Assembly (NCBI RefSeq): GCF_004123295.1 | Contig: NZ_SDMK01000002.1 | Span: 124,001-188,000 of the forward strand | Length of the DNA stretch: 64,000 nt | Direction of reading: 5' to 3' | DNA from: Silvibacterium dinghuense | GTDB lineage: Bacteria > Acidobacteriota > Terriglobia > Terriglobales > Acidobacteriaceae | Part shown: positions 2,368 to 43,374 of the stretch, in pieces | How the letters are laid out: every line of letters begins with the position of its first letter | How positions within the stretch are numbered: position 1 is the first letter of the stretch | The notes under the pieces: model-generated | Databases searched by the model: none | What the model saw: the letters and a program-made list of their open reading frames with translations, nothing else | Told to the model about the DNA's origin: nothing | Program-made: the position numbers and the translations under genes

Positions 2368-2462
2368 TTGAATTTTCAAGTTCTCCATAAATGTCGCTTG
2401 ACATTCGTTTGCTCCGTAAACTATTTTCGCGTCCGATCAATAATTTTTACTTTTCAAGTAAA
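2368..2462 (+). promoter_or_regulatory. Leader of the receptor gene with two short inverted repeats
   Basis: TTGAATTTTCAA (2368-2379; 5-bp arms, 2-bp spacer) and TTTACTTTTCAAGTAAA (2446-2462; 7-bp arms, 3-bp spacer) lie in an AT-rich stretch before the receptor. The second directly abuts the GCGGAG ribosome-binding site, so it could act as an operator or as an RNA hairpin that occludes translation. Function is not established. Confidence 0.3.
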
Positions 2463-2474
2463 GCGGAGTTTCGC

Positions 2475-5400
2475 ATGAAAAGGCACATGACTCATCTTTC
2501 GGCGAGTCTTGTTTTTCTCACTTGTGGATTGGCTATGGCGCAGGAGGTTCGTTCCACTATCGCAGGTCATGTTTCCGATAGCACCGGGGCGCGTGTTCCA
2601 GGCGCGCAGATCACGGTTCGAAACACGGACACCGGGGTGGTTACGACGGTAAAAACGAACGAAACAGGCGATTACACGGTTCCATTCCTGCAGCAGGGAA
2701 CCTACGACGTGATCGCAAGCGAACCAGGATTCAAGGCTACGCATTATGCGGGGTTGCTGCTTTCAACCGAGCAAACGCTGACCGAGAATATCGTTCTTGC
2801 CATCGGTAACGTGAGCGAGACGGTGACAGTTGCCAGCGAAGGTGCGCTGATCGACACCGCCACAGCAGAGACGGGACAGACTTTGACCGCGAAAGAGGTA
2901 GAAGATCTACCGAGCAATGGCCGCTCGCCCCTGGGTTTTGCGCGCGATGAATATGGCGTGGTCTCCAAGGGTAAGCATTCGCAGGCGCAGACAAGGCCTT
3001 TCGACAATAGCGCGGCCGACGACTTCTCCCTTGGCGGAGGCAACTCGGCGTCGAACGAACTGCTGTTGAATGGTGTGCCGAATATGCAGGACTCAAGCCG
3101 CACGGCAGGTTATAGCCCGCAACTTGATTCCGTGGATGCAGTCCACGTGGACGAATTTACTTCGGATGCCTCCTTTGGTGACACCTCTGGTGGCACGGTG
3201 AACATCACGACCAAGCCTGGAACCAATACCTTTCATGGGAGCGCATCAGAATACTACTCAGGCTCCCGTCCGTTGACCGCGGAGCCCTATTTCACGACAC
3301 AGGGTGCGAGCGTGAGCTCGACGCATTTCAACCAGTTTGGCGGAGCTATTGGCGGGCCGGTATATATCCCACATGTTTTTGATGGACATAACCGGGTTTT
3401 CTTTGAGTATGCGTTCGAAGGCTACATCGGAGCACTCCCTTCGACCTTCATCGGTAGCGTGCCGACTGAGGCCGAGCGGAAGGGCGACTTCTCGTCGCTG
3501 CTGGCTGTCTCGCCGGAATATCAGCTTTACAATCCGTATGATGTGACAGCCACAACCGCGAATGGCAAGACAACTTATACTCGTGCGGCGATCAATGACA
3601 ATATCATGTCCAACGCCGGGCTCTCGGTAAACTCGGTCGGTGAGAACTATCTTGCCTTGTTCCCATCGCCAAACTATAGCGGACCGTCAACCAAGGATGA
3701 CGGCACGAATAACTTCTTCGCAAGCGATCCGACGCAGAATAACTACAAGTCCAATGCGCTGCGCGTCGATGTGGCGATTTCACAGGCGAATAAGATTTAT
3801 GGGGAAGTGCACCGCAGCACCTCCTACACAAATCAGTCGAATGTATTTCACTCGATTGCGACTGGAACGAGCGCAGAAGTGCTGCTGTGGGGCGGCTCGA
3901 TTGATGATACTCACACCTTCAACAGTACGACCTTTTTGGATACGCGGCTTGGCTTCAGCCGCAGCATAAACAGCTCAAACCCAAACAGCTATGGCACGGA
4001 CCCCACAACGCTGGGCTTCCCGTCTTATATTCGTGGCGATTCGACGGCGTACGCCATTCCGCGGCTGACATTCTCAGATGATGGATATAGCAATATTCCG
4101 AGCATCAGCAGCGAGCCTGGAAGCACGGCGTCTTACGATAGCATTCAACTCTTCGCCAGTTTAAACAAGTCGATTGGCCGGCACACAATCAAGATCGGTC
4201 CAGATATTCGAGCGAATAAGGACTCGGTGTTATCGCCTGGCAATGCGGATGGCGACTATAGCTTTAGTACTGGTTCAACAGACTTCCTGACCAGTGGATC
4301 TACTGGAACAGTACAGCCCTTCGGCAGTACTTTTGCCATGCTCTATCTTGGACTACCGAGCAGTGGTTCTTACGATGTGAATACCAAGTTCCAGTACAAC
4401 AACTGGTATAACGCGTTATTCATTCAGGATGACTGGAAGATCCGCCCGAACCTCACGGCCAGCCTCGGGCTCCGTCTCGAGCACGAGACGCCAGTGAACG
4501 AGAGCAATAACAAGATGACCACGGCATGGGATCCGAATGTCGAAAATGCATCTTCATCGGCTGCCGCAGCAGCCTATGCGGCCGATCCTTCGCTGCTGCC
4601 TGTTGCTGACTTCAAGCCGACCGGCGGGTTATATTATGCCAACAGCAGCGACCGGCACGCGTATCATACGGCGCCGTTGTACCTTGGGCCCCGTCTTGGC
4701 CTGGCCTACTCGCCTGAACTTACACACGGCACTACGGCCATCCGTCTGGGCTGGGGGGTGTTCGAAAATCCGTTCAACAACTATTACCAGGGGCAGACAT
4801 ACGGTTATTCGCAGACGACCAGCATGATCGTATCGAATGACAGCAATCAGACGGTCGCAACGACTCTGTCCGATCCCTTCCCGACAGCCAGCAATCCTAT
4901 TGTTCAGCCGGCAGGCGCCGCGTGGGGCATCAATACGAACCTGGGTAGCAAGATGGTGTTTTACGGCAATATCAAGGTCCCGTATGCGATGCGTAGCAGC
5001 CTGGACATTCAGCAGCAGTTTGGAAAGAACTGGATGCTGGATATCGGCTATATCAATACTCACCAGGTGCATCTCTCTTATTCGAACACGATTACAGGTG
5101 GATCGGGATCCGTTCCTGTCTCCTATCTCAGCCGGTCGCGATATTACGATGCAGCGCTCACGGCAGAGTACAACACTACGGTCGCCAACCCATATAAAGG
5201 CACGCTGGTAGGGCCTGGAGCGACGACAGGGATTAACACCGCCTCCACACTCTCGGTATCGCAGTTGTTGTGGCCTTATTCCGAATACAGCAGCGTGACC
5301 CAGCAGCTGGTCCCGTATGGGAATGCAAATTACAACGCATTGCTTATTCGTCTCGAAAAGCGCATGGCAAATGGGCTTGATCTGGATGTGAACTATACCT

Positions 5401-6056
5401 ATTCGCGCAACCTCGGCGCAGAATCGCAGCTGAACACCGCTGGCGCACTCTGGTATGGAGAAACAGCCTCGGATTTCCCACACAGCCTGCATCTCACGGC
5501 CATCTACCAACTCCCGTTTGGAAAAGGGCGCGCCTTCCTTGGTAACGCATCGAAGCTTGTAGATGAAGCACTTGGCGGATGGGAGCTGAGCACAATCTAT
5601 AGCTTTGACTCGGGTACTCCGTATAGCTGGGGCAATGTGATTTATAACGGCAACTGGCACGATATCGATAACAATCCGCACAACGCCAAGGGAGAGGCTT
5701 TCAATACGAAGGTCTTTGATACACGTACCTGCGAAAACGGTACGACTACCTGCAACAATACTGTCGGATCGTCGAGTTACAACCCGAGCATTCAGCCGAA
5801 TGCTTATAACAATCGCACCTTCCCGCTCTATGCGTGGAGAGCCGATCCAACCAATAACTGGGATTTCTCGATGCTGAAAAACTTCCGTATCCACGATCGG
5901 TTGCAGATTCAGCCTCGCATAGATGCTTTCAATATCTTTAATCGCGTGCAGTTCAGTGCGCCAAACTTGAGTCCGACCTCATCGGCCTTTGGTACGATTA
6001 CTGCTCAACAGAACACGAATCGTCAGCTGCAGGGCGGAATTCATATCCTGTTTTAA
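2475..6056 (+). CDS. Oar-like TonB-dependent receptor with N-terminal carboxypeptidase-regulatory domain
   Basis: The start at ATG 2475 is chosen over an upstream in-frame ATG at 2391 because it has GCGGAG seven bases ahead and begins a clean Sec signal (MKRHMTHL...CGLAMAQEV). The product is 1193 aa. Order: signal (1-23); CarboxypepD_reg/Cna-B-like domain (about 25-110; IAGHVSDSTGARVPGAQITV, YDVIASEPGFK); plug (about 120-250; DLPSNGRSP, SNELLLNGVPN, GGTVNITTKPGTNTFHGSASEYY); then a very long beta-barrel with many alternating aromatic strands and terminal residues ILF. Such proteins take up large or bulky substrates across the outer membrane using TonB energy. Flanked by an apiosidase-like enzyme, IclR regulator and hydrolases, it most likely imports plant oligosaccharides, but the ligand is inferred. 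Confidence 0.92.
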   Translation: MKRHMTHLSASLVFLTCGLAMAQEVRSTIAGHVSDSTGARVPGAQITVRNTDTGVVTTVKTNETGDYTVPFLQQGTYDVIASEPGFKATHYAGLLLSTEQTLTENIVLAIGNVSETVTVASEGALIDTATAETGQTLTAKEVEDLPSNGRSPLGFARDEYGVVSKGKHSQAQTRPFDNSAADDFSLGGGNSASNELLLNGVPNMQDSSRTAGYSPQLDSVDAVHVDEFTSDASFGDTSGGTVNITTKPGTNTFHGSASEYYSGSRPLTAEPYFTTQGASVSSTHFNQFGGAIGGPVYIPHVFDGHNRVFFEYAFEGYIGALPSTFIGSVPTEAERKGDFSSLLAVSPEYQLYNPYDVTATTANGKTTYTRAAINDNIMSNAGLSVNSVGENYLALFPSPNYSGPSTKDDGTNNFFASDPTQNNYKSNALRVDVAISQANKIYGEVHRSTSYTNQSNVFHSIATGTSAEVLLWGGSIDDTHTFNSTTFLDTRLGFSRSINSSNPNSYGTDPTTLGFPSYIRGDSTAYAIPRLTFSDDGYSNIPSISSEPGSTASYDSIQLFASLNKSIGRHTIKIGPDIRANKDSVLSPGNADGDYSFSTGSTDFLTSGSTGTVQPFGSTFAMLYLGLPSSGSYDVNTKFQYNNWYNALFIQDDWKIRPNLTASLGLRLEHETPVNESNNKMTTAWDPNVENASSSAAAAAYAADPSLLPVADFKPTGGLYYANSSDRHAYHTAPLYLGPRLGLAYSPELTHGTTAIRLGWGVFENPFNNYYQGQTYGYSQTTSMIVSNDSNQTVATTLSDPFPTASNPIVQPAGAAWGINTNLGSKMVFYGNIKVPYAMRSSLDIQQQFGKNWMLDIGYINTHQVHLSYSNTITGGSGSVPVSYLSRSRYYDAALTAEYNTTVANPYKGTLVGPGATTGINTASTLSVSQLLWPYSEYSSVTQQLVPYGNANYNALLIRLEKRMANGLDLDVNYTYSRNLGAESQLNTAGALWYGETASDFPHSLHLTAIYQLPFGKGRAFLGNASKLVDEALGGWELSTIYSFDSGTPYSWGNVIYNGNWHDIDNNPHNAKGEAFNTKVFDTRTCENGTTTCNNTVGSSSYNPSIQPNAYNNRTFPLYAWRADPTNNWDFSMLKNFRIHDRLQIQPRIDAFNIFNRVQFSAPNLSPTSSAFGTITAQQNTNRQLQGGIHILF

Positions 6057-10336: not shown

Positions 10337-13017
10337 TTAGAAGGTGTAGTGGAGAGAAAACTGCAGATGGCGCTCCGTGGAGCGAATGGAGCCGAGCTGC
10401 GCGATTTCACCAAAGGTGGCGTCGCTGACACCGGTGTCGGGATTGCCGTAGCTGACCAGGTTGAATGCATTGAAGGCATCGAAACGGAAGCCAATGACCT
10501 GTTCCTTATAGGTCTGGAAATCCTTAAAGGCAGAGAGGTCGACATTCTTGTAGTCGGGGCCGCGGAGAGAACCATTGCGCGCCGTACCGAAGAGTGTTCC
10601 GCCGGAGCCGTTGGAGGCCGGCAGTCCGAATGCGCATGTGCCGTCGTCAACGCCAGAGGGACAGATGTCGGTGGCGGAAGCATCGGTGCCGAACCAATGA
10701 TCCATGCTGCGATGAACGACCTTGATACGGCGATATTGATTGGGGCGAGAGTTACCGTAGCTGTTGGAGTTGTTTCCTGGGCCGGTTGCGGTTTCGGGGA
10801 AGCCGGACCAGAAGACTCCGGCTGCGGAGATCTTCCAGCCGCCGAAGGCTTCCTCTACCAGCCGGTTGGCGTTTGAGAGATATTCGTGTCCGCGGCCGAT
10901 GGGCAGGGCATAAACAGGCACGAACGAGAGGTTGTGAGTGGCGTCGTAACCGGCAGGGCCGTAATCCGCGCCGCTGTCGTAGTAGTTCTGGAAGGCGCCG
11001 CTGTAGCCGTTGACGTTGAGTGCATAGTTGCCAAGGCTGTTGGTCATGGCCTTGCTGTAGGTGTAGTTAAGCTGAAATTCGAGTCCATGGTTCAGGCGCT
11101 GGCGCAGGGTGGACTGCAGCGCGTTGGAGTTCATCATGGCACGAGACTCAGTGATAAGCAGGGAGTTCGAACCGATCGAGGTGGAGGGATCAACGGCATT
11201 CACACCAAGATATTCGTTGTTATAGAACGGGGCCGAGGAGGGAACACCGTTGACCAGATACTGGTTGACGTTGCCGTAGTCCTCGATGTGCTGTCCTTGC
11301 TCACCGATATAGCCGATCTGCAGAGAGAGCGTGTGGGTGAGAGCATACTCCGTGGTGAGGTTCCACTCCTGGATATAAGCGGGCTGAATGTCCTGCGGAT
11401 AGACATTGAAGGTGCCGCCATACTGGGTGGTGCCACCGCTGAAACCCTCTTCCGCAGTACGCGGGTCTCCGCCATTGTCTACGGTAGGCGTGACCACGGT
11501 GACGCTGATGGCCTGGATGAAAGGAGTAATCGAGGTGAGTCGCTGGTTGGAAGAGTTGCCTTCGAAGAAGCTGGTCGCGCCGTATCCTCCGCGGACGACA
11601 AAGCGGTCCGTGGCCTGATAGGCAAAGCCCAGGCGCGGCATGAATTGGTGATAGTTGGGCGCATAGCAGCCGGCATATTTGCAGATACCTGAACCGACAG
11701 GCGCACCGACAGGTACGTGGCCTTCATACTGCACCTGCCCGGTTGTCAAATCGATGTTTCCAGTTTTGTCATTCTGTTCGACCCAGGGCTGGTCATATTC
11801 GTAACGCAGTCCAAGGTTGAGAGTAAGTTTTGGCGTGGCTTTCCAGTCGTCGGCAATATAGCCGGCCACACGCCACTGGCGCTGACCTACATTGACACTG
11901 CTGAGCGTGGCGCCGGCCGAACTGACGCGATCGAGGACAAAATCCGCTGGGCCGAATCCGCCTGCGCTGGCAGCATTGATCGATGGGTTGCTGGTGAAAA
12001 GGCCGCCATAGCCAAGGGAGCCAAGGTAACCGGAGTTGTTGGCTGTGGGGTAGTTGTTCTGGTAGCGCATGGCCTGGATGCCGGCAACGATCGTATGCGT
12101 GCCGCGCTGCCATGTGAGGTCATCGATGTAGGAATAGGTGTTGTCGATCAGACCGCCGCCATAGGCCGGATTGCCGACACCGGAGACATAGCTGCCCATC
12201 GACTGGTAGGTGAACCCGGCGAAGGATTGGTTAGGAAAAGGGATGCCGATAATCTTGTCGCCGTTGTCCCCGAAGATGCCGGTCGTGTCGATGGGATAGT
12301 CCGTCGCCCAAACGGTGCGTGTGAAGCCGATGTGGGCAGAGTTGACGATTTCCGGCGAGAAGGTGTGAACCCAGTTGGTGCCGAAGAGCTTGGTGGGATA
12401 GTTATTGACGCCTGGGAAGCTGATGGCAAGGACGGAGGTGGTACCGTCATACGCCGTGGACATCGAGTAGAAGCCGGTGATCTTGTCCGTCGGCCGAGGT
12501 GTGTACTCGATTTTGATGTCGCCCTGGTTGTTCGCCTTACCTTATAGGTGCGCGTGGGGCCCTGGTAATTGTTCTTGAGCAAACCATCGGTGCCGACAGC
12601 GTTGGGCAGAGGATAGATGTTCGAGTTGGCGAAGAGGTACTTGGCTACCGGGTTGACGATAGAGATCTGGTTGTTCGCGTAGGGGACGAATTGATTCTGC
12701 GTGTTGTAGAGCTGAATGCCGTAGGTCTCGAGCACGTCGGAGAAATCGCCACTTCTTTCGGCTGCAGTAAAGACGCTGGCTGAGCCGGTGCCGCCCGCGT
12801 GATAGCGAGAACCGCGATAGTCGACGAAGAAGAAGAGCCGGTCACGCTTGATGGGGCCACCGAAAGTGCCGCCGAACTGATCCTGCGAAAAAGGATTGAT
12901 GGGAATCTTTGGCGAGGCCTGGTTGTTGGTCCAGGAGTTGGCATTGAGGCGGTAATCCTGCACATAGCCATAAGCCGAGCCGTGGAACTGGTTGGTTCCG
13001 CTCTTCAGCACACTGAT
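10337..13017 (-). pseudogene. Decayed Oar-like TonB-dependent receptor: N-terminus missing and internal frameshift
   Basis: Two minus-strand frames together encode one receptor. The upstream piece (13017-12538) starts inside the plug/barrel junction at SVLKSGTNQFHGSAYGY and runs to NNYQGPTRTYKV. Translation then continues only if two extra bases (12536-12537) are skipped, giving ANNQGDIKIEYTPRPTDKITGFYS and an uninterrupted barrel to the terminal HYTF at 10337. Intact relatives next door carry a signal, a carboxypeptidase-regulatory domain and a plug, some 230-280 residues, before this point. All of that is absent, and only about 220 bp remain before the next gene on the other strand. The gene is therefore truncated by rearrangement as well as frameshifted. 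It presumably once served the same carbohydrate locus. A sequencing error could explain the frameshift but not the missing N-terminus. Confidence 0.88.
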
Positions 13018-13152: not shown

Positions 13153-13172
13153 TCAATCAAATATTTGATTGA
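13153..13172. promoter_or_regulatory. 20-bp perfect palindrome in front of the intact receptor gene
   Basis: TCAATCAAATATTTGATTGA is identical on both strands. It lies 66 bp upstream of the receptor ATG (13238) inside an AT-rich promoter region. Perfect 20-bp symmetry is very unlikely by chance and fits the operator of a dimeric regulator. No identical copy was seen elsewhere in the window by eye, so its regulator is unknown. Confidence 0.6.
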
Positions 13173-13237
13173 AATTTGCAAAACAGAGCACTAAAGTCAC
13201 ATTCATCAGGTATTCATACCTGACTTGTGGAGGCAGC

Positions 13238-16200
13238 ATGTTTCAAACTTTTAAGGCTGGCGGTTGTCGTCCGCAGCGGGGGACAGCTTCGCGAGCCCTT
13301 CGCCTGGCGCTCTTTGCCACAGCTCTGCTGGGATCGGCAGCCATACCCTTCCATATGGGAATGGTGGCCTATGCGCAAAACGCGCAAGGAAGCATCCTTG
13401 GCCACGTGGTAGACAGCACGGGAGCAGTGATTCCCGGCGCCCAGGTGACCGTGACCAACCTGAGCACGAATGTAAAGGTAGTTCTTCCGACGAACGGTAA
13501 CGGTGATTATGTGGTGCCGCAGCTGAACCCCGGCCCATACACGATCACGGTTGAGGCATCCGGCTTTAGCGCCGCATCGTCCACCCAGCTGACGCTGGAA
13601 GTGGACCAGAAGCTCCGTCAGGATTTCAAGCTGTCCGTCGGCTCGGCCGCATCCACGGTAACGGTCTCGGCAGATACACAGATGCTGCACACCGATGACA
13701 CGACCATCGGTCAGGTGATGGATGACAAGCTGATCCAGGCTCTGCCCGTGAACGGTCGCGACTTTACCAACCTGATGCTCACCAATGTGGGTACGAATAT
13801 TACCCCCGGTGGCTCGGGAACAGACTGGTCCTTCCATGGTCTGAACAATACCTATATGGAAGTGAGTGCGGATGGCGCGCAGGCGCAGACCACCAGCTAC
13901 AGCGTCGACGGCATCTACGACGCGGACTTCTTCTTCAGCGTGCCGATCAATATTCCGAACGAGCTCTCCGTTCAGGAATTCAAGATGATGAACGGCATGT
14001 ATGGTGCACAGTACGGTTCCGGCGTTTCACAGGTAAACGTGGCCATCAAGTCGGGCACGAACCAGCTGCACGGTGCCGCATACGAAGCACTGGAAGCGAA
14101 TTGGCTGGAGCCGGATAACGCCTATCAGGCAGCCGAGAATGCAGCCACCGGCAGCACCTCTTCGACCAGTCCCGATTTCCATCAACACCAGTTCGGTGGC
14201 ACGCTGAGCGGCCCTCTGGTAATCCCGCACGTCTATGACGGCCGGAACAAGACCTTCTGGTTTGGCAGCTATGACCAGGGTCTGTATACGAAAGTGAACA
14301 GCCCCTCGACGGACTTCGTGCCGACAGCTGCGGAGCTTTCGGGTGACTTCAGCGCTTATCCATTCCCGATCTACGATCCAGAAACGACAGTTACGAATAC
14401 GGCTTACAACTCCAGCGCGGCACAGAGCCCGACGAACTCACCGGTCATTCGTAAACAATTTGCCAACAATCAGATTCCGGCAAACCGTATTGATGCAGTG
14501 TCGGCTGCGATCGCCAAGTATTTCGACGCGGAGAATATCTCAAGCTGCTCGGAGTCAAGCCATATTCTCAGTGGTTGCGATAACTACTCGGCAAACACAA
14601 AGACCACGAAAAATACGGGTGTGGGTACGGCGCGTATCGATCAGTACATTGGTGCTGACGATCACGTCTTCCTGACGGCCAATGTGGGCAATCTTTCGCA
14701 GACCTCAACCTCCATTCGCTTCGGTCAGGGCGGACAGGTGTATACGCGTCCAAAGCTTTTTGGCGGAACGTGGAATCACACCTTCAATTCGAACCTGATG
14801 AATCAGGCGACGCTGGGTTACAGCCGGGACCACTTCCTCAGCGGTACGAACACCGCGTATGGCGCGAACCTCTCAGAGGACGTAGGCCTGGCGAATACTG
14901 CCAGCAATCCGGCGACATACGACCTGCCGACGATGTCGGTCTTCAATTACCAGGGATTCGGTGGCGGCGAGCCGACCACGTATGCCGATAACATCTACCA
15001 GGGCGTGGATACGGTCACTTGGTTACACGGACGCCATACCTTCAACTTCGGTGTGGACTATCGTCGTGTTCAACTCTATGAGTTTGACAACTACGACGGC
15101 ACCGGTTCGCTGACCTTCAACGGTGAGTTCACCTCCGCAGTTCCGGGCTACGCCGGCGATGCACTGGCTAGCAGTGGTGCCTACTCCTCAACCGCGGCGT
15201 ACCAGGGCAACGCCCTGGCTGACATGCTGCTGGGGGACTGGAGCGGCGCATCGGGCCCTCCGCCGATCGCTACAGACGATTACATCCTCTGGGGCAACAA
15301 CTGGAACCTGTTTTTCCAGGATGACTGGCGGGTCTCTGATCGTCTGACCCTCAATGCGGGTCTGCGCTGGGAGCGGCCAGCGGACTTTCATACGGCCCAC
15401 AATGACGGCTATGCCTTCAGCCCCTCGAATGGCGGCCAGTTTGTCTGGGCCAACTGCTCCTTCACGGAGCCGATCCTTGCTGCTGGGGGCAACTCCAACT
15501 TTCTGCAGTGTGGCGCGAGCAGCACCCTGGTGCCGGTCGACAACAAGGACTTTGCTCCGCGTATCGGTTTCTCGTATCGCCCTGCAGGAGCAAAGGAGAA
15601 GCTGGTTGTGCGTGGCGGCTTTGGCATCTTCTACGGCACTTACAATCGCTACTACGACGGCTCGCAATACGATAAGGATGAGCTGTACAACGAAACTGCA
15701 GCAACCTATACTTCTCCCACCGGCACCGAGGAGTATCCCACCAATGCGAGCGGCCAATCGCTGGTAGTGAGCAAACTCTGGTCTGCGCCTCTCAATGCGG
15801 ACAGCCTATTTGAGACCAACGGTTGGGAATTTCCCTTTAATCAGGTCAACTGGCCGAAGAATCATACCCCGTATGATGAGCAGTGGTCTTTCGATACCGA
15901 ATATCAGCTGACCTCTTCGCTGATGCTCGATATCGGCTACGTCGGCGATCACGGTCTGCGTCAGCCCAGTCAAGACATCATCGGAGCAGCAGCACCCCCG
16001 AAGGTGGCTGGCGACTCCTGTAACAATCTGGTGGACGCTTCGCTCGCGACAGGCAGCAACGCCTATTGTGCCTCGGATTCAAACTTCCAGCCGATGGATG
16101 AGCGGACGCCGTACGCCAATATGCCGCCGTACCTCTACGCAAACATCAACGGTTTTCAGTCAACCTATAACGCACTGCAGGTGCAGCTCATCGAGCGGAT

Positions 16201-16906
16201 GATTCACGGTCTTACTTACCACGTGAACTACACCTACTCGAAGACGATGGACCTGACCTCGGGCATCAACCTCGTCAATGGCGAACAGGCGCAGATTCAG
16301 AATCCGCAGCATCCGTACCAAGAGTACGGCCTGGCGGCTTCCGATGAAACCCATCGCCTAGTGGCTACCTATGCCTACGAGGTGCCAAAGGACCTCATTC
16401 ACATCGCGCACATGAACTGGCTGTTTGCTGGCTGGACCACCAGCGGTATCTATCAGCTCTCGAGCGGTTTCCCCTTCTCTATTCTCGGCGGCGTCGGTTC
16501 GGACCAGATGGCGGAAGATTACACGGGCCGCTTCCTGGCCAACTCCACCTACGCAAAAAATGCGAGCTTCAAGAGCACGCTGGGTCAGGCGTTTAATACC
16601 TCGATGTACTCCACTCCCGAGCTGGGCCGCTATGGCAACACGAATAAGAGCCCGGAACGCACGCCCTACTTCACGAACTTCGACGCTAGCTTTGGCAAGA
16701 CGACCCACATTGGTGAGCGTCAGGCTCTACTGATCCGCATCGAAGATTTCAACCTCGGCAGCACGTGGCACTCCAGCACCAGCCTGCTTTTCCCCGACTC
16801 GACCGTGACAGATACGAACTTTGGATCGCTCATCAACAAGACGTACGGAAATGTCTCGCTATGGAATCCCCACACATTGCAGCTGACCGCGCAGTACAGC
16901 TTCTAA
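13238..16906 (+). CDS. Oar-like TonB-dependent receptor with carboxypeptidase-regulatory domain (intact)
   Basis: ATG 13238 is chosen because GGAGG lies eight bases upstream; an in-frame ATG at 13169 would fall in the palindromic operator. The product is 1222 aa: long signal (1-47; ALRLALFATALLGSAA...VAYAQ), CarboxypepD_reg domain (about 50-130; ILGHVVDSTGAVIPGAQVTV), plug (about 150-290; ALPVNGRDFTNL, TTSYSVDGIYDADFF, VNVAIKSGTNQLHGAAYEAL) and barrel to the final YSF. The segment before KSGTNQ is exactly what the neighbouring pseudogene has lost. It should import a bulky substrate through the outer membrane and is followed after a terminator by a CBM9-like exported protein. The ligand is inferred to be a polysaccharide fragment. 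Confidence 0.92.
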   Translation: MFQTFKAGGCRPQRGTASRALRLALFATALLGSAAIPFHMGMVAYAQNAQGSILGHVVDSTGAVIPGAQVTVTNLSTNVKVVLPTNGNGDYVVPQLNPGPYTITVEASGFSAASSTQLTLEVDQKLRQDFKLSVGSAASTVTVSADTQMLHTDDTTIGQVMDDKLIQALPVNGRDFTNLMLTNVGTNITPGGSGTDWSFHGLNNTYMEVSADGAQAQTTSYSVDGIYDADFFFSVPINIPNELSVQEFKMMNGMYGAQYGSGVSQVNVAIKSGTNQLHGAAYEALEANWLEPDNAYQAAENAATGSTSSTSPDFHQHQFGGTLSGPLVIPHVYDGRNKTFWFGSYDQGLYTKVNSPSTDFVPTAAELSGDFSAYPFPIYDPETTVTNTAYNSSAAQSPTNSPVIRKQFANNQIPANRIDAVSAAIAKYFDAENISSCSESSHILSGCDNYSANTKTTKNTGVGTARIDQYIGADDHVFLTANVGNLSQTSTSIRFGQGGQVYTRPKLFGGTWNHTFNSNLMNQATLGYSRDHFLSGTNTAYGANLSEDVGLANTASNPATYDLPTMSVFNYQGFGGGEPTTYADNIYQGVDTVTWLHGRHTFNFGVDYRRVQLYEFDNYDGTGSLTFNGEFTSAVPGYAGDALASSGAYSSTAAYQGNALADMLLGDWSGASGPPPIATDDYILWGNNWNLFFQDDWRVSDRLTLNAGLRWERPADFHTAHNDGYAFSPSNGGQFVWANCSFTEPILAAGGNSNFLQCGASSTLVPVDNKDFAPRIGFSYRPAGAKEKLVVRGGFGIFYGTYNRYYDGSQYDKDELYNETAATYTSPTGTEEYPTNASGQSLVVSKLWSAPLNADSLFETNGWEFPFNQVNWPKNHTPYDEQWSFDTEYQLTSSLMLDIGYVGDHGLRQPSQDIIGAAAPPKVAGDSCNNLVDASLATGSNAYCASDSNFQPMDERTPYANMPPYLYANINGFQSTYNALQVQLIERMIHGLTYHVNYTYSKTMDLTSGINLVNGEQAQIQNPQHPYQEYGLAASDETHRLVATYAYEVPKDLIHIAHMNWLFAGWTTSGIYQLSSGFPFSILGGVGSDQMAEDYTGRFLANSTYAKNASFKSTLGQAFNTSMYSTPELGRYGNTNKSPERTPYFTNFDASFGKTTHIGERQALLIRIEDFNLGSTWHSSTSLLFPDSTVTDTNFGSLINKTYGNVSLWNPHTLQLTAQYSF

Positions 16907-32761: not shown

Positions 32762-33871
32762 TCAGAAGGAAACTGGAAGACTTTTGGCTATAAGTAGTAA
32801 TGTTTCGTTCACAATATGTAATTCTATGGTCCCGGTCGTCGGACTGTCTCCCAGGGCCGCGGTTCCCCATGCATAGGGTGGTAGCTCCCCTTTCCAGGTA
32901 CCTGTTCCGGCTGGTTGCAGTCTTGCCGCCGCCGCAATTTTAGGTGCGGCCCCCATTGCTTCCGCAGCTGAGGTGAAGCTCGCTGCCCACACCGCGTTCC
33001 CATAGGCGCGACGATGCAGCCCTGTGGCGTAGTTGTGGTAGGAAGCAATCTGCCCGGGAGCGTCCCATTGACCTGGCTCGTAATATTTGGCTTGCCAGAT
33101 CATTTGCGGCATTGTTCCGATGTCCTCCAAGGCGCCGCGATATTCATCCTCTGCTACCTGTGTCAGGGCTATTCGTCGTAATGAGCCCAGCTTTTCCGGT
33201 ATTACCGCTGGTGTGACAAAGCCTGGCGACAAGGGATCGCGATCCAGCAACGTTGGAGCTGTGCGTTTCCAGCCCGGAGCGGCAATCAGTCCATTCACCA
33301 AACCCTGCTTGAGAAAGCCATCTACCGCTAACGTTACCCCAATGGAATCCGTACCAGTCAGGCTTATCCACTCGCACTCATAGGGGGCTTTCGGAATGGC
33401 GGCAGCATGGAGGAAGGGGTTTCGATCCGCTTCAAGATAGCCAATCGAGCCTTGTATATGTCCGAATCCAAAAGCAAAGAGTGATCGGGATGCCGGCTGG
33501 ATTGCAGCTTCACGCTGCCATGCTTGCTGCAAAAGTGGATCGTTTGCCAGCGCAATCAGGACCACATGGTTGTAGGCCAGTTGCTGCGGATTCGGTGACG
33601 AGATGTCGATCATCGGTCGCCCGCCGGAAAGCGTTATAAGCAGGGGATGAGTAGATGCGGCAGCCTGGATGACTCTACGAAAAGCATCCCCCTCGGCTCC
33701 GAGTCTCATATCGATATATAGAAGCAGGCCTCGTTGCCCCGCGTTGCTGGGGGGCGGACTCATTGGACTAGCATTATCCCAACTGATGGCGGAACGCGCT
33801 GGAATCGCTAGGGTCGCTGCGGCTGCGGTGGAAAGTTCGAGAAATCGACGCCGATTCAAAAATGTTGTCAT
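32762..33871 (-). CDS. Tat-exported protein of unknown family, coupled to the 1226-aa protein
   Basis: The 369-aa product starts at ATG 33871, overlapping the stop of the large upstream gene (ATGA). It has a textbook Tat signal (NRRRFLELSTAAAATLAIPARSA, 6-28). The mature part looks like a compact alpha/beta domain: GLLLYIDMRLGAEGDAFRRVI, HPLLITLSGGRPMIDIS, HVVLIALANDPLLQQAW, SLTGTDSIGVTLAVDGFLKQGLVNGL, then a beta-rich end (GTIELHIVNETLLLIAKS). I do not recognise a named family or catalytic motif. Its partner and location in an EPS operon suggest periplasmic processing or binding of the polysaccharide. That role is inference only. Confidence 0.75.
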   Translation of the reverse strand: MTTFLNRRRFLELSTAAAATLAIPARSAISWDNASPMSPPPSNAGQRGLLLYIDMRLGAEGDAFRRVIQAAASTHPLLITLSGGRPMIDISSPNPQQLAYNHVVLIALANDPLLQQAWQREAAIQPASRSLFAFGFGHIQGSIGYLEADRNPFLHAAAIPKAPYECEWISLTGTDSIGVTLAVDGFLKQGLVNGLIAAPGWKRTAPTLLDRDPLSPGFVTPAVIPEKLGSLRRIALTQVAEDEYRGALEDIGTMPQMIWQAKYYEPGQWDAPGQIASYHNYATGLHRRAYGNAVWAASFTSAAEAMGAAPKIAAAARLQPAGTGTWKGELPPYAWGTAALGDSPTTGTIELHIVNETLLLIAKSLPVSF

Positions 33872-36800
33872 CGGCTTTCCTGTATGGCCAAAAGAACGCT
33901 ATCGCCAGAACGCATAGGAACTGTGATTTCCCAGTAGGCTCCGTCATCAGCCACTGTCAGCGTGTTGTGATCGTTCAGGTTGGCGGCAGACGCTCGTTGT
34001 GCCCCAGGAGATTTTCGAAGCCGGACGTTTGCCTCACGTGTCTGCTCGAGCCAATCTTCGACAACGATCAGATTCAGATTCTGGCAGCGGAAGCCATAGC
34101 CCGCAAAGTCGGCGGAAAAGCTGATGGGAAGCTCGAGCTCTTTTATGAGTTGAGCCGCGATTTCGAGCGCCTGCGCGTGCGTCAAGCCGGAAGCCAGCAT
34201 TTCCAGTAGGAATGTGCCGGGACGAGAGAAAAGAGCGGCGACATTGGGCGGCAGGGAACTGCGTGGGGCGAATGCTGCGACCCGCACCCCTTGCTCCTGC
34301 ACGCGGATGAGTCCTTGGATTTCCTCAGAATTGAAATCCTGCAGATTCAAGACGATCAGGGAAGCAGATGGAGTAGGCTTCCAGGATGCGAGCGTTGAAG
34401 CATTCGTTGCAAAGGGAATGCTGACTCCTGCTTCGGTGAGAGAACGAAAGGCATCCATGAGCAGACGGGTTTCCGGCAAAGCTGTAGGGTCACTTCCGTT
34501 CCATCGGGTAGATTGTGGCTCAGCATTCTTCCGCGTGCTGATAACGAGTCCGGCCCCTAGGGGCGATTCCGGTTGCAGTAGACTTCCGCGTTGTTGGAGA
34601 TTCCACCATTGCTGGTACTCCTCTGCGGTGAGCACATAGGGCGAGCCCACGTTATCGGTGTACCCATAAGTTGCGGATGCAGCATAGGTGCCATCATCCC
34701 ACACAAGCCCGCGCCATATCCGGTTATGAAGTAGTCTGCGATTTGGCTCTGTTGTCCCTACCGGATCATGCCATTGCCAGTTATTGAAGACTGGGGATAC
34801 GAATCCCCAGGGCATCATGGTGTTTACTTGCCACACCGGATTGAAGGCAAGGCTACCAAGCGTTCGTCCTGTCGTGAGATTAGGGCTGTTATCTTCCATG
34901 CCCCAGGTAAAATCGTCGTTCATTCCGCGAATGGTTTGAGCAAGTTCACGCCCTGGCTCCCCGGCAACAGCGGGGAAGCCCTGAGAATAGATCACTGCAT
35001 CTTTATGCTCAACACGGAAAGCTTCTCGGATCGCGCGGACAGCCTCCACGTATCGACCGAGTTGCCATGCTTGCCATTGGTTCTCATGATCGGTATGGAT
35101 AGAGTTTTCTATTTCCGTATGAGTGCGTCCATCCAAGCCTTTGCCGGTTTGGGTGCGCAAATAACTATCGAAGGCAACGTACTCCTGCCAGCTGTTGCAG
35201 TTTCGCAGGTCTGGGCCAATTACCCAGCGGTCGGCAAAGTTCAGTCGCACTAATACGGACTTTTTCCAGCCATTCTGTTGCTTCAGATGCTGTACGAGTC
35301 CAGGAACCGATGTCTGAAAAAACGGCTCACCGTTGCTGAACTCGCGCCAGGGAATCGAATAATGGCGCATATCCGACTGTGTCGCATAAAGACGATTTGC
35401 CGCTGTACGCGCTTTCGGCGGAATCTCCTTGAATTGGCGGCTATAAGCCCAGACCAGATCGTCTGGATGTCCCCATCCATTCCATGGCTCCGATGTTCCC
35501 GTAGCCAGCTGAAAAAACTGCGTAAAACCATTGGTAACAATCATGCCCGTCCCAAAGACATCGGGGCCGGTGATCTCCTGGATGGATCTCAATGTTTTGC
35601 GCGGAGAGATCGCTAATATCGGAGCTGTGGCGATAACTCGGTTTTGAGCATTGTCCGGCTGGAAGGTTCCCTCTAACCGATAAATCTCTGGCTTTGCCGA
35701 CTGCGGCAGCTCCACGGTGAAATCCTGCAAGCGCGTCTCGCAGGAGCCAAGCATCACAGCTTGCTCTAGGACTGGTTGCCGATGCCCGCTCAAAGCTTCT
35801 ACCAGTGCTAGGGTCAAACGGCCGCTTTTATGATCAGTAGTGGAGATTGGTACGGGCCAGCCTTCGATCTCGATTTCGCCCAGCCATGGTTCCTGTCGCT
35901 GCCGATTCCCAACTTCGGGAACCCATGGCAGCCGTATTTTCACTCTGCTACCAGTAGTCCCTGGAGGCAGCGCTATCCGGACTTGTCCCAGACCTTTTGT
36001 AAAAGCCGAATCAAGATCGGCGATTGCTGTACCTGGCTTATCGTCGATCTCGACGGCAAGCTGGCCTGGATTATGCAACGCAAAATTACCATAGCTCTCG
36101 CAGCTGCCTACCAGTGTGATTGCAGAGAATCTTGAGGGCACTGAAAAGGTAAACTGCAATACATTTTCTACACCGGGCTTGCCGTTCCATGTTCCATACC
36201 CCTGTATGTGGTCGATCGGTGTGCGGCGAATGGCAGCACCTCGATCGTTCAGTGCAACCACTGATACATTCCCTGGCTGAGTCAGGTCTTCGACCTTGGC
36301 GAGAGGCGCAAGATTCTCGCATTGATACCGAAGCATCACCGCCCCTCGTACTACACTTCCGGGCAGGTAGGCATAGGAGGAGGTGGCTGTCCCCATTCGA
36401 CCTTGGAAGCCGGCTAGTGCATCGGTTCCCGGCCCCGAGAAGGGAAAAGGCGCGGTATACAAGTTTTCTGTTGCAATATGTAGTCGGAGCGCTGGAGGCA
36501 GGGAAATAGCTCGTTGTTCCGCCAGCAGGGTGGATCCATCATCGGCTAGCAGACCGGCTCGCACTTGGAGGCTGGTTTCCGCTTCGTTTGCTTCGATGCC
36601 TGGTAATGCAGGCGGTAAAAGAGGCAAATCCAGAACGGTAGAGCGCCCTGCGGGGAGTGTCACGGGTTTCACGAATTCGCCGGCTCCATCGCCGAGCATG
36701 GCCCCGTCGCGATCCAGCGTACGCATAACAAGTTGAACCGGTAAGGGTGTATGCGAAGGGTTGTTCATGGTCAGTCGAACGGTGTTCGCTGAAGGGAAGC

Positions 36801-37548
36801 TCATAGCCAGAGATGGCTTGATATCCGGAATTGAACCACCGCGTGTATTTGCTTCATTGAGCCATCCGATCACCGCACGCCAGAAGGCCTGCGCTGCAGG
36901 AGATTCTCCAAGCGCGGCAGAGGTGGTGGCTAGCATCGCCACCTTTCCTGCTCCATAACGACTCGTCACCAGGAGTGGCAGACGTTCGATGGTGTTATAG
37001 CAGGCACGAACAGTCCATTCCCGATTCAGCAGTGGCCGCGACCACAAATCGGAGTTCGGTGCCATGTCTGTTCCGAGTATGGGGTGCTGTATCCGATAGC
37101 GTTCATACCGCGATTGCCCACGCTCCACAGCGGAGACAGGACGGATATCAAAACCTAACGGTGCTGCGAGCCCGTCGAGATTGGCTCCTTTAAAAAAAGT
37201 GGCATCGGGCGCAAGGATAGGTGTGGGTGTCTGGGGATCATAAGAGGGGGGCTGCCTCTGTGAGGTCCAGCCAGTAGATGGAAGGGCCTGGCTCAACCAG
37301 AAGGGGCTTTGCCCGGGATGCATGCCGACGGTAAACAGGAAACTTCCCCCTCTGCGCAGATTGTCAAGAAGAGATACCGTACTTTGCGCATTCAAGGAGT
37401 TGTTCGGGCGCTGACCTGCTTCAAACAGCATCAAAGGCACGGAGGATGAAGCAGAAAATGCCTGGGCGTGCGGAGTGATGTTGTGATCCTCGCAAGCGCT
37501 TAGGAGTGCCTGCGAGGGCTGGGGGATATTCGAAGAAAAATTCGGCAA
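33868..37548 (-). CDS. Very large hydrolase-like protein with two glutamine-amidotransferase-fold regions
   Basis: The 1226-aa frame starts at TTG 37548 with AAGGAG nine bases upstream; no signal peptide is visible, which is odd for its context. N-terminal segment (about 30-230) resembles an inactive GATase-like fold (LMLFEAGQRP, LRRGGSFLFTVG, RYGAGKVAMLATTSAALG). Middle parts (about 230-640) are beta-rich domains. Residues about 700-990 look barrel-like with NFADRWVIGPDLRNCNSWQEYV, DAVIYSQGF, DDFTWGMEDNSPN and WRGLVWDDGTY. A further GATase-like segment (about 1000-1150; LIVLNLQDFNSEEIQGLIRVQEQGVRVAAFAP) recalls the trimerisation domain of GH42-type beta-galactosidases. A glycoside-hydrolase role on EPS is plausible but unproven; no catalytic pair can be named. 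It follows the flippase and is coupled to the Tat protein. Confidence 0.65.
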   Translation of the reverse strand: MPNFSSNIPQPSQALLSACEDHNITPHAQAFSASSSVPLMLFEAGQRPNNSLNAQSTVSLLDNLRRGGSFLFTVGMHPGQSPFWLSQALPSTGWTSQRQPPSYDPQTPTPILAPDATFFKGANLDGLAAPLGFDIRPVSAVERGQSRYERYRIQHPILGTDMAPNSDLWSRPLLNREWTVRACYNTIERLPLLVTSRYGAGKVAMLATTSAALGESPAAQAFWRAVIGWLNEANTRGGSIPDIKPSLAMSFPSANTVRLTMNNPSHTPLPVQLVMRTLDRDGAMLGDGAGEFVKPVTLPAGRSTVLDLPLLPPALPGIEANEAETSLQVRAGLLADDGSTLLAEQRAISLPPALRLHIATENLYTAPFPFSGPGTDALAGFQGRMGTATSSYAYLPGSVVRGAVMLRYQCENLAPLAKVEDLTQPGNVSVVALNDRGAAIRRTPIDHIQGYGTWNGKPGVENVLQFTFSVPSRFSAITLVGSCESYGNFALHNPGQLAVEIDDKPGTAIADLDSAFTKGLGQVRIALPPGTTGSRVKIRLPWVPEVGNRQRQEPWLGEIEIEGWPVPISTTDHKSGRLTLALVEALSGHRQPVLEQAVMLGSCETRLQDFTVELPQSAKPEIYRLEGTFQPDNAQNRVIATAPILAISPRKTLRSIQEITGPDVFGTGMIVTNGFTQFFQLATGTSEPWNGWGHPDDLVWAYSRQFKEIPPKARTAANRLYATQSDMRHYSIPWREFSNGEPFFQTSVPGLVQHLKQQNGWKKSVLVRLNFADRWVIGPDLRNCNSWQEYVAFDSYLRTQTGKGLDGRTHTEIENSIHTDHENQWQAWQLGRYVEAVRAIREAFRVEHKDAVIYSQGFPAVAGEPGRELAQTIRGMNDDFTWGMEDNSPNLTTGRTLGSLAFNPVWQVNTMMPWGFVSPVFNNWQWHDPVGTTEPNRRLLHNRIWRGLVWDDGTYAASATYGYTDNVGSPYVLTAEEYQQWWNLQQRGSLLQPESPLGAGLVISTRKNAEPQSTRWNGSDPTALPETRLLMDAFRSLTEAGVSIPFATNASTLASWKPTPSASLIVLNLQDFNSEEIQGLIRVQEQGVRVAAFAPRSSLPPNVAALFSRPGTFLLEMLASGLTHAQALEIAAQLIKELELPISFSADFAGYGFRCQNLNLIVVEDWLEQTREANVRLRKSPGAQRASAANLNDHNTLTVADDGAYWEITVPMRSGDSVLLAIQESR

Positions 37549-37609: not shown

Positions 37610-38968
37610 TTAAAGGCTGCTGGCTATCTCAGGCGCAGGGTTGCGCGAACGTCCTCGGCGCAGTGCGCGAAGATCCTCACGACGTAACAGCAAAGACGGC
37701 GGTTTTACACCAAGTCGGCGTTGGAAACTGAAATATACGAATGTGAATCGCGCCAGAGTCGAGAGTGCGAAGGCGATCGCAGCGCCCATGATTCCCCAGC
37801 GAGGGACCATCAGCAACAACAGTGGAACCGCAGTCAACAAGCCACATCCCTGAAGCATGGCGACAGTGCCGGGACTGGATGCCGCCAGGAAAGCCTGCCC
37901 CAAGGTGCTGGTCACGCCATCGATGACTGACTCCACCAGCAGCAGCCGGAGGATCGGAGCTGCTCCGTCGAAGCGTTCGCTGTATGCGAAGTGAAGAATG
38001 GACGGTCCTAACAGAATCAGCGTTAGCGATGCGGCGGCCATGAGAGCGGCTGTGACGCGTACTGCGCGCCCGGTAAAGGCCACGATCTCTTCTGTGGAGC
38101 GTGCAGCAACCTTGGGCAGCAATACTGTGGTGACAGCATTCGGAATTACCAGCAGCACATTGGAAACGCTTTGCGCGACAACATACAGGCCCATCGATTT
38201 AGGGTTCACCATGCCTACGATCAGCAGGCGGTCTACCTGATTGGCAATGGTGCCCAGGATATCGGAGCCCCACGCACGCAAACCGTAGCTTAGAAGGTCA
38301 CGCAGCAGGCGTGGATCGCGTGGCCATTCCGGGCGGAAAGTGCGCCACACCCAGAAAATGTTGATGATCATGACGGGTACATTCGCCATCAGGTAAGCTA
38401 TGGCGGCATTGGTCGGCGTCAGCACGCCGAATGCCCACTCGACCAGCAGGCATAGAAGGATGAGCACCGGTTGTGCGCCGGTGAAAAGACTGTACGTCTT
38501 AAAGGATTCCGTAGATCTCGCGAGGACAGTAAGCGTCAGGCCAAGAAGAGCCTGAGGTGCGACAAGCAGTAGCCACTCTGCAGTATGAACGACGTGATGC
38601 TGGTATGTATGCAGCGCATAAGGTAAAAGGAGTAGCCCCACGCCGATCGCCACGATGCCCAGAAGAACGCTGGATAAGAGCGTGGCTCCTGCGACCATGC
38701 CTTTCTTCTCGGGTTCTTCCCTGATTTTGTAGATCGATGCCACAGGGATGCCCAACGTGAGGGCATAGGCGAAAAACTGCGGCCACATAATCATCGCGGC
38801 CAACTCACCGCGGCCGGTAGGTCCGATAGCACGCGCAGTTACGATGCCGCAAAGGAAATTGCCGCCCTGAATCAGAATGTTGGCAATAAAGACAAAAGAA
38901 ACGGAAGATGCTCCGCTCTTGCCGGAGAACAGCCGCCGACGCAGGCTGCCTGTCTGCTCATTCGCCAA
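37610..38968 (-). CDS. Wzx-like polysaccharide flippase (MOP superfamily)
   Basis: The 452-aa protein starts at TTG 38968 with AGGAG about eight bases upstream. It is almost entirely hydrophobic with 12-14 predicted helices. Its opening (SFVFIANILIQGGNFLCGIVTARAIGPTGRGELAAM) is the standard beginning of the polysaccharide biosynthesis/Wzx family, and LRDLLSYGLRAWGSDILGTIANQVDRLLIVG is the conserved central segment. It should flip undecaprenyl-linked repeat units to the periplasm for the Wzy-like polymerase at 41854. It is the first gene of the minus-strand EPS arm; a 600-bp divergent region precedes it. Confidence 0.9.
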   Translation of the reverse strand: MANEQTGSLRRRLFSGKSGASSVSFVFIANILIQGGNFLCGIVTARAIGPTGRGELAAMIMWPQFFAYALTLGIPVASIYKIREEPEKKGMVAGATLLSSVLLGIVAIGVGLLLLPYALHTYQHHVVHTAEWLLLVAPQALLGLTLTVLARSTESFKTYSLFTGAQPVLILLCLLVEWAFGVLTPTNAAIAYLMANVPVMIINIFWVWRTFRPEWPRDPRLLRDLLSYGLRAWGSDILGTIANQVDRLLIVGMVNPKSMGLYVVAQSVSNVLLVIPNAVTTVLLPKVAARSTEEIVAFTGRAVRVTAALMAAASLTLILLGPSILHFAYSERFDGAAPILRLLLVESVIDGVTSTLGQAFLAASSPGTVAMLQGCGLLTAVPLLLLMVPRWGIMGAAIAFALSTLARFTFVYFSFQRRLGVKPPSLLLRREDLRALRRGRSRNPAPEIASSL

Positions 38969-41853: not shown

Positions 41854-43374
41854 ATGCCTATGTCTTCTGCCTCCCCCATGGCGAACCTCTCTGCCTCTTT
41901 CCGCAGAGGTGCGGTTAGTCGGACCACGCTAATCTTTGGCGGCACACTGCTAGCTCTTTCTGCCGGCATGTGGATGATTTTTCACGACCAGTTCAGCTTA
42001 TTAGGCGCTGGAGTGTTTTTAGCTGTCCTCCTTCTAATTTCTCTGCGTAACAAGGCTCTCGCGATTCATCTCGCTATCGTTTACCTATTCCTGCTGGGAG
42101 ATATTCGGCGAATTTTTGATATGACCGGCGAGATGCCGAAATTCGATCCATTGCTGCTTGTAGGCCCTATATTCAGCATTATTTTGGCACTTCCTATTCT
42201 GATGACATTGCGGCTTACAGATCCCATGTCTAAGGCCGTAACTGCGCTTATGGCCATCATGACCTTGGAAATATTCAATCCGAAACAAGGCCCTATTGTC
42301 GTAGGAGTCGCTGGAGCAATGTTCTATCTGATTCCTATGTTTTGGTTCTGGATTGGGCGGCAGTACGGTACGATTCCGGTTGTTTATCGCATCATGCAGC
42401 TTGGGCTTATACCTCTAGGTGTTCTTGCTGCAGTGCTAGGCATGATCCAAACCTATATTGGTTTCCTGCCTTGGGAGCGAGCATGGATTGACAACGTAGC
42501 TTCGCATTTTACTGCGCTGAACTTGGGGGGCGGTTTTATCCGTGCCTTCGGTTACTCCGTGAACGGTGTTGAATTTGTGGCCATTATGCTGACTGGCTGT
42601 ACTGCGGCGATGGCGATGTTCTTTGCGGGACGGCGAGCCTATATGTTCTTGGTCCCCATTATCGTTTGGGGAATATTCCTGTCATCATCTCGTGGCGCTA
42701 TTCTTAGGTGTCTCTTTGCTATTTGTGCTTCTTGGGCTTTAAGCAGTAAAGGTGGACGAGGCTGGGCTCTCCGTCTTGTCCTGGCACTTGGTCTTGGAGT
42801 ACTCGCGCTCGGATTTTCTGTAACGAGGGCAACACAGGCTGCGGGTGATCATAGTGGAGGATTTACTTCAGCCGCAGATGCTTCTACTCAACACCAATTA
42901 CAGGGATTGTCGGATCCATTAAACGCGAAGCATTCAACAGCCGGAGTTCATTCACAAATGTTCTTGGCTGGACTCATGAAAGGCATTACATATCCGATTG
43001 GGTATGGTCTGGGAGCAACAACTCTTGGTTCAAGCCGCTTGGGTGGCGATTCCTCTGCTGCAGGCAGTTCTGAGGTCGATCTTAGTGATGTTTTTACAAA
43101 TACAGGATTGATAGGCGGAGCCGTATATTTATGGATGTTTTTTCTGATCTTGAAACGGGCAATCCGTTTCGGTCGAACTGCGCCAAGGGTAGTTGGTTTG
43201 TCCGTTCTGGGAGTGATTTTTGCATTGCTGGGCCAGTGGCTGGCACTCGGTTCCTATGCGATGACACCGTTAACATGGTTCTTTATAGGTGCAATTTCTC
43301 GGTCCATGGCGGATCCTCTCGCGGAGAGAAATCCCCAACAAGTTGCTTTTTCTCCTCACTTGGCTCGGACCTAG
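41854..43374 (+). CDS. Wzy-like polymerase / O-antigen-ligase-family membrane protein
   Basis: The 506-aa protein has about 11-12 hydrophobic helices and a large polar loop between the last helices (about 320-420; TRATQAAGDHSGGFTSAADAST...HSQMFLAGLMKGITYPIGYGLGATTLG), as in Wzy/WaaL proteins. IIVWGIFLSSSRGAILR is the SSRG signature of the family. It should polymerise flipped repeat units in the periplasm. The start ATG 41854 has only a weak GAAG upstream. The gene follows the acyltransferases by 49 bp and is visibly less GC-rich than neighbours, common for polymerase genes exchanged between strains. Confidence 0.85.
   Translation: MPMSSASPMANLSASFRRGAVSRTTLIFGGTLLALSAGMWMIFHDQFSLLGAGVFLAVLLLISLRNKALAIHLAIVYLFLLGDIRRIFDMTGEMPKFDPLLLVGPIFSIILALPILMTLRLTDPMSKAVTALMAIMTLEIFNPKQGPIVVGVAGAMFYLIPMFWFWIGRQYGTIPVVYRIMQLGLIPLGVLAAVLGMIQTYIGFLPWERAWIDNVASHFTALNLGGGFIRAFGYSVNGVEFVAIMLTGCTAAMAMFFAGRRAYMFLVPIIVWGIFLSSSRGAILRCLFAICASWALSSKGGRGWALRLVLALGLGVLALGFSVTRATQAAGDHSGGFTSAADASTQHQLQGLSDPLNAKHSTAGVHSQMFLAGLMKGITYPIGYGLGATTLGSSRLGGDSSAAGSSEVDLSDVFTNTGLIGGAVYLWMFFLILKRAIRFGRTAPRVVGLSVLGVIFALLGQWLALGSYAMTPLTWFFIGAISRSMADPLAERNPQQVAFSPHLART

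Follow-up and report, generated by a model that had tools for sequence, protein, structure and literature searches.

An uncatalogued, linked gene pair in an acidobacterial exopolysaccharide cluster: a possible glycan-processing complex exported by the Tat pathway

We analysed a stretch of 64,000 nucleotides from Silvibacterium dinghuense (contig NZ_SDMK01000002.1, positions 124,001 to 188,000; hereafter the window), which belongs to a genome of 5.1 Mb in 9 contigs. Within a cluster of genes of the exopolysaccharide (EPS) type lie two adjacent genes, here called P1 and P2, that had been described in an initial annotation as an unfamiliar coupled pair; the coordinates, the strand and the 4-bp overlap (33868-33871) of both open reading frames (ORFs) were all reproduced. 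P1 starts with TTG at 37548, with the sequence AAGGAG 9 nt upstream. The predicted masses are 134.6 kDa for P1 and 36.5 kDa for P2, so that a complex would have ~171 kDa if formed 1:1. The pair and its parts, including a twin-arginine translocation (Tat) signal, are as follows.

33868-37548, minus strand: P1, 1226 amino acids (aa), uncatalogued family, TTG start, without a recognisable export signal
32762-33871, minus strand: P2, 369 aa, uncatalogued family, with a Tat signal
33788-33856, minus strand: twin-arginine signal region of P2, residues 6-28, NRRRFLELSTAAAATLAIPARSA; the end point is an estimate
36814-37443, minus strand: N-terminal segment of P1, residues 36-245, GATase1-like, with weak profile matches to PF07090-bearing proteins
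34549-35586, minus strand: conserved core of P1, residues 655-1000, a putative catalytic domain

Family searches and distribution of the pair

Six other loci encode relatives of P1 that align along almost the whole protein with 37-65% identity, and chance ORFs can therefore be dismissed. P1 of the window scored above the cut-off of no Pfam or NCBIfam family, and its sequence had no match in the PDB at E values up to 1. Scans of seven P1 members revealed no Pfam or NCBIfam family covering the middle or most of the protein, and NCBIfam matched none of the seven. Searches of the PDB with a P1 profile and with profiles of its parts returned no convincing relative, and the profile of the core returned zero matches. 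We rejected a match of the C-terminal segment to 7mcd, an AI-designed TIM barrel (E 4e-12), as this value adds up four copies of a single repeat, each of which alone has an E value of at least 0.42. P2 exceeds the cut-off of the Tat signal model TIGR01409 (18.7 bits, cut-off 16.7, E 0.0016) and lies below that of Pfam TAT_signal (14.3, cut-off 22.7; three of seven P2 members matched at E up to 10). Apart from this signal, it matches no Pfam or NCBIfam family (the P2 members were also scanned with Pfam), and its comparison with the PDB, by profile search only, gave nothing convincing (best E 0.022). Placement of both proteins in well-characterised families would have told against the initial annotation; in these searches neither was assigned to one.

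Single-sequence searches of 150 genomes of the same family detected P1 in three and P2 in three, the same three in both cases. Among 298 genomes of the order, the P1 profile matched 28 (six at full length and 22 by short matches only) and the P2 profile matched seven. Six of these seven are full-length; the other, a 68-residue match in genome G600, was set aside as similarity in the signal region. The six genomes with full-length P1 and the six with full-length P2 are identical. P1 matched seven of 396 genomes of the phylum (two full-length, five short), and P2 was found in three of 28 genomes of one genus. A contig pattern search with the P1 alignment gave two relatives among 64 pattern matches, one in an Edaphobacter metagenome-assembled genome (MAG; locus L020, 65% identity) and one in a Planctomycetota MAG from a bog (L021, 37%); the same search with P1 alone yielded no relative among 19 pattern matches. 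Four of 294 genomes of the phylum of L021 matched P1, the L021 MAG itself at full length and three by short matches. As at most two (P1) or six (P2) candidates per genome were scored, the counts from the large samples are lower bounds. L020 and genome G599 share a 200-base piece and represent the same locus, counted once, which leaves seven distinct pairs, six acidobacterial and one from the Planctomycetota MAG.

In all seven loci P1 and P2 are direct neighbours, and their order is conserved. With the starts chosen, they overlap by 4 bp in the window and in L021, by 1 bp in L020, G140 and G577, and by 11 bp in G559, and they are separated by a 2-bp gap in G098. Their pairwise identities co-vary (r = 0.96, from 21 pairs that are not independent). 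P1 and P2 are rare, but where they occur they are linked. Recurrence in other genomes had been set beforehand as a check, and the pair does recur, in six further loci. By the family searches and the conserved adjacency together, we regard P1 and P2 as an uncatalogued, linked pair.

Export signals and cellular location

The Tat signal attributed to P2 in the initial annotation is borne out by TIGR01409, and P2 begins with RRxF(L/I) in all six acidobacterial pairs (not in the Planctomycetota one). P1 had been said to start without a signal, and none is recognisable even with its frame extended to the upstream stop. The same holds for all six acidobacterial P1 proteins, in which no basic-then-hydrophobic start is seen and no RR motif follows the likely start, with frames extended in the same way. 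Absence was judged by reading, and hydrophobicity was taken as the peak of 12-residue Kyte-Doolittle windows. The G140 frame opens one codon before the ATG, so that an upstream extension is impossible there; in G577, a string RRMGV straddles the likely ATG. An adjacent partner without a signal of its own, as expected of Tat hitchhikers, is therefore present in six of six acidobacterial loci, and the genome of the window encodes the translocase (TatC, PF00902, E 8.7e-68).

The Planctomycetota pair presents a different arrangement. Its P1, if begun at the GTG of codon 32, reads RHHRHRTLLLAILGCLCSAIPLSG, and its P2 reads MKARLHLMPVLLLALCTLAGAAEA; both look like Sec signals (hydrophobic peaks 2.63 and 2.57, respectively), and neither has an RR motif. 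By its apparent signal, P1 of this pair probably works outside the cytoplasm. As this P1 appears to carry a signal, co-export is the natural reading of the pair: if P1 is outside on its own signal in one lineage and stands without a signal beside a Tat-signalled P2 in another, the economical explanation is a complex exported whole by Tat. We thus infer that P1 and P2 may be two subunits of an extracytoplasmic glycan-processing complex, exported in Acidobacteria by Tat hitchhiking, a reading whose chances we judge to be evenly balanced. P1 would be made without a signal and would fold in the cytoplasm; P2, translated from the overlapping next gene, would be bound by P1; and the folded P1-P2 complex would then cross the inner membrane through Tat on the signal of P2.

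Several observations weigh against this proposal. The double-Sec arrangement occurs in one locus only, L021, where the start of P1 had to be chosen: besides the GTG at codon 32, before the hydrophobic segment, there are GTG codons just behind it (64 and 65), and a start without a signal is possible. Hydrophobicity does not separate the six acidobacterial P1 proteins (0.98-1.56) from the Tat-signalled P2 proteins (1.22-2.03). Among eight neighbouring secreted-type proteins used as controls, six peaked at 1.73 or above, and the peak fell in a plausible signal in three of the eight (2.72, 1.92 and 2.46); the other peaks were located upstream of the called start, at miscalled starts or within the mature protein. 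A composition test of location, built on 28 cytoplasmic and 32 exported hand-picked controls (90% leave-one-out accuracy; 68% for a two-feature version), gave exported-like scores of 0.67-0.79 to P1 of the EPS-type loci, 0.47-0.56 to P1 of the loci with GH92 genes (both described below) and 0.39-0.69 to acidobacterial P2. The same test scored both Sec-like Planctomycetota proteins at 0.29-0.30, thereby failing its own positive controls. Finally, no cofactor motif that would explain folding before export turned up in the family scans, the only searches made for one.

Alternatively, acidobacterial P1 may be cytoplasmic and P2 extracytoplasmic, the two serving the same pathway in two compartments and forming no complex; P2 could, for example, bind or process a polymer outside while P1 acts inside on imported or lipid-linked pieces. 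The lack of a recognisable P1 signal in all six acidobacterial loci suits this arrangement, as does the composition test, which does not put P1 of the GH92 loci outside. We nevertheless consider it rather unlikely, given that the Planctomycetota P1 appears Sec-signalled (with the start codon a choice) and that co-occurrence with overlapping or nearly touching genes in seven of seven loci fits a complex better. P1 might also leave the cell by another route (type I secretion, non-classical export or lysis), with P2 an independent Tat substrate and the linkage reflecting a common substrate only. Glycosyl hydrolases that cut a bacterium's own EPS can indeed use a type I system, as reported for PlyA and PlyB of Rhizobium (PMC2275737). 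However, P1 of the window lacks the GGxGxDxxx repeat, no type I exporter was found among the neighbouring ORFs scanned with Pfam, which are a part of the neighbourhood, and one relative is apparently Sec-signalled; such a route is highly improbable in our view.

Genomic contexts

The flippase and the acyltransferase reported to flank the pair were both found, within a larger set of genes on the same strand.

37610-38968, minus strand: flippase (Wzx-like, Polysacc_synt; Pfam), upstream of P1
31478-32701, minus strand: membrane acyltransferase (Acyl_transf_3; Pfam), downstream of P2
25631-31481, minus strand: five glycosyltransferases (Pfam), each with a counterpart (50-85% identity) in the sequence surrounding the pair of the Edaphobacter MAG (L020)

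A protein with Wzz, GNVR and AAA_31 domains is also encoded downstream on this strand. With a same-strand flippase, a Wzz/Wzc-type protein and five glycosyltransferases, the window carries a Wzx/Wzy-type EPS cluster, in which Pfam gave no Wzy family match. The ORF at 41854-43374 (plus strand, 506 aa) has no Pfam match; it is Wzy/ligase-like by position only and has a 48.5% counterpart at L020:4751-6250.

EPS-type clusters with glycosyltransferase and acyltransferase genes surround the pair in three loci (the window, L020 and L031 of G559), whose P1 proteins are mutually closest (45-65%). L020 encodes counterparts of the five glycosyltransferases, the acyltransferases and the Wzy-like protein of the window, and G559 encodes counterparts of two glycosyltransferases and two acyltransferases, as well as a flippase-family gene. 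ORFs of 381 aa (L020:8689-9834, minus strand) and 345 aa (L031:8353-9390, plus strand) adjoin the start of P1 and have no Pfam match (1e-5; 1e-4).

The P1 proteins of G098, G140 and G577 also cluster together (52-82%), and their loci contain GH92 genes. These stand directly upstream of the pair in G098 and in G140, which has two of them, whereas the single one of G577 is ~2.2 kb away on the upstream side. G140 and G577 have a GH28 gene next to the pair, and in G098 a gene for an outer-membrane beta-barrel protein is found close by. The intervening ~2.2 kb in G577 (L029:11711-13886) contains no clear ORF on the P1 strand by a simple gene call; G140 has its second GH92 gene at this place, and the G577 gene was possibly missed or has decayed. 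In the window, three large ORFs at 2391-6056, 10337-12463 and 13169-16906 have 24-29% identity to an outer-membrane beta-barrel protein (L008:11110-14934). The genome of the window carries 10 GH92 genes, none of them within the window.

GH92 enzymes are exo-alpha-mannosidases. A mannose-containing heteroglycan is thus a reasonable candidate for a common substrate. The GH92 loci look like loci of glycan degradation, and half of the acidobacterial relatives lie there, so the common theme is glycan processing and not the Wzx/Wza/Wzc machinery. The initial annotation had seen the pair as a candidate for an undescribed polysaccharide-processing system within an EPS operon; what stands is an uncatalogued, linked pair beside glycan genes in six of six acidobacterial loci, and what is less certain is a specific tie to EPS assembly, with three loci of the EPS type and three of the GH92 type. 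None of the three scanned neighbours in L021 is a glycan gene. These upstream neighbours (L021:1398-9524) encode a DUF7133/cytochrome c protein, a sensor kinase with F5/8-type segments and a DUF1501 protein.

From these contexts we infer a possible activity and substrate. Outside the membrane, the conserved core of P1 would act on a heteropolysaccharide. In the EPS clusters the target may be the strain's own polymer, which would be trimmed, edited or released, and in the GH92 loci it may be an alpha-mannose-containing glycan.

Domains and fold of P1

The initial annotation had pictured P1 as a combination of two GATase-like segments, beta domains and a barrel-like middle. The short matches of the P1 profile counted above span ~47-105 residues, for the most part within profile positions 182-286, and fall in other ORFs, the majority of them 718-807 aa long; they were the sole match in 22 of the 298 order genomes, five of the 396 phylum genomes and three of the 294 genomes from the phylum of the Planctomycetota MAG. 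Genome G000 gave one further short match, at profile positions 249-317. PF07090 (GATase1_like) is present in all three short-match ORFs scanned, in one barely at the cut-off (27.1, cut-off 27), and one of the three also has VWA domains. The matched segments start in the last third of the PF07090 domain and extend beyond its end. We set the short matches aside, as GATase1-like or immunoglobulin (Ig)-like segments, from the full-length counts. The first GATase-like segment is therefore plausible, with moderate support from the PF07090 domains of the matched ORFs, and neither the second such segment nor the barrel-like middle found confirmation.

The core (residues 655-1000) is 70% identical to that of L020 and 46-52% identical to those of the other five relatives, and it is rich in invariant Asp, Glu, Trp, Arg and His residues. 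By this conservation it is a candidate catalytic domain. AlphaFold models built from three-row alignments had a mean pLDDT of 39.3 for P1 (residues 36-1226; below 50 in the core region) and 46.4 for P2. Foldseek comparison of the P1 model with the PDB returned at least 150 matches with E values no higher than 0.001, the lowest being 4.9e-8. Of the best 50 of the 150, the majority were Ig-like or transglutaminase-type proteins, and the others included a GH2 and a Bacteroides glycoside hydrolase; all 50 had query TM scores of 0.11 or below, and we discarded the matches as meaningless. For the P2 model, no match was returned at E up to 0.001, with TM scores of at most 0.19 among the matches listed. 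GH92 was rejected as a parent family of P1 (hhalign against four GH92 proteins, probability at most 1.0; no Pfam match), and a discoidin-like look of residues 360-572 was unsupported by comparison with two F5/8-type segments.

The pair might instead be non-catalytic, a surface or periplasmic module of beta-sandwich and GATase1-like domains that binds glycans or serves as a scaffold. The best Pfam match across the seven P1 members is to the beta-sandwich family MalQ_N (two of seven, best E 6.8e-6), and the GATase1_like segment occurs also in the VWA-domain protein (one of the three scanned), both of which would agree with such a module. We find it improbable, since the core is shared at 46-52% with five relatives, with invariant polar residues that look like an active site, and the GH92 neighbours suggest hydrolysis. 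Residues 101-200, however, are about as conserved as the core. It also weighs against our proposal that P1 is called an enzyme on the basis of its size, its invariant polar residues and its neighbours, the models being too poor to give a fold.

Significance and comparison with known systems

Going one step further, we tentatively suggest, as a possible if doubtful extension of the proposed complex, that P1 is the founder of a new carbohydrate-active enzyme family, exported folded in a ~171 kDa complex on a dedicated Tat partner, and that Acidobacteria moved a Sec enzyme to hitchhiking for use on their own EPS and in the degradation of mannose-containing glycans. If true, Tat hitchhiking would extend beyond redox enzymes, and such enzymes would be misplaced wherever annotation assigns location from a protein's own signal peptide. 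Two uncatalogued families would join the enzymes that process the mannose-containing soil EPS of Acidobacteria, and the Sec/Tat split between relatives would serve as a natural experiment for asking what makes an enzyme change its export route.

In domain order, P1 bears a loose resemblance to GH42-type beta-galactosidases, as judged by eye. Its N-terminal part weakly matches the C-terminal part of GH42 (profile probability 39.8), but hhalign of the core against 12 GH42 proteins gave a probability of 0.1 and that of the C-terminal half 0.4. We rejected GH42 as a parent, and P1 is not a member on present evidence. The likeness to PF07090 GATase1_like proteins concerns one segment (about profile positions 190-280), which matches domain-bearing ORFs in three of three scanned and reaches the domain end only; Pfam does not call PF07090 in P1 itself.

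PlyA and PlyB of Rhizobium, compared by description, have the same job as that proposed for P1, cutting their own EPS, but are exported by a type I system (PMC2275737), unlike the route proposed here. Among the papers listed in a literature search, none showed a polysaccharide-cutting enzyme exported by Tat hitchhiking; in the accessible text of PMC13323110 and PMC2275737, 'hitchhiker' occurs in the reference lists only. The nearest sugar-related case among those listed is a flavin adenine dinucleotide (FAD) glucose dehydrogenase, whose catalytic subunit is reported to be complexed with a 'hitchhiker protein' (PMC6719666); it is a redox enzyme acting on glucose and not on a polysaccharide.

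Established examples of Tat hitchhiking are hydrogenases and formate dehydrogenases (PMC10924467) and PaoABC (PMC4273604). Like P1 and P2, these complexes (NiFe hydrogenases, formate dehydrogenases and PaoABC) combine a twin-arginine subunit with an adjacent partner that has no signal. They are cofactor-containing redox enzymes, whereas our scans assigned neither P1 nor P2 to a redox family and the pair lies with glycan genes. A further difference is that one relative of the P1/P2 pair seems to use Sec for both proteins.

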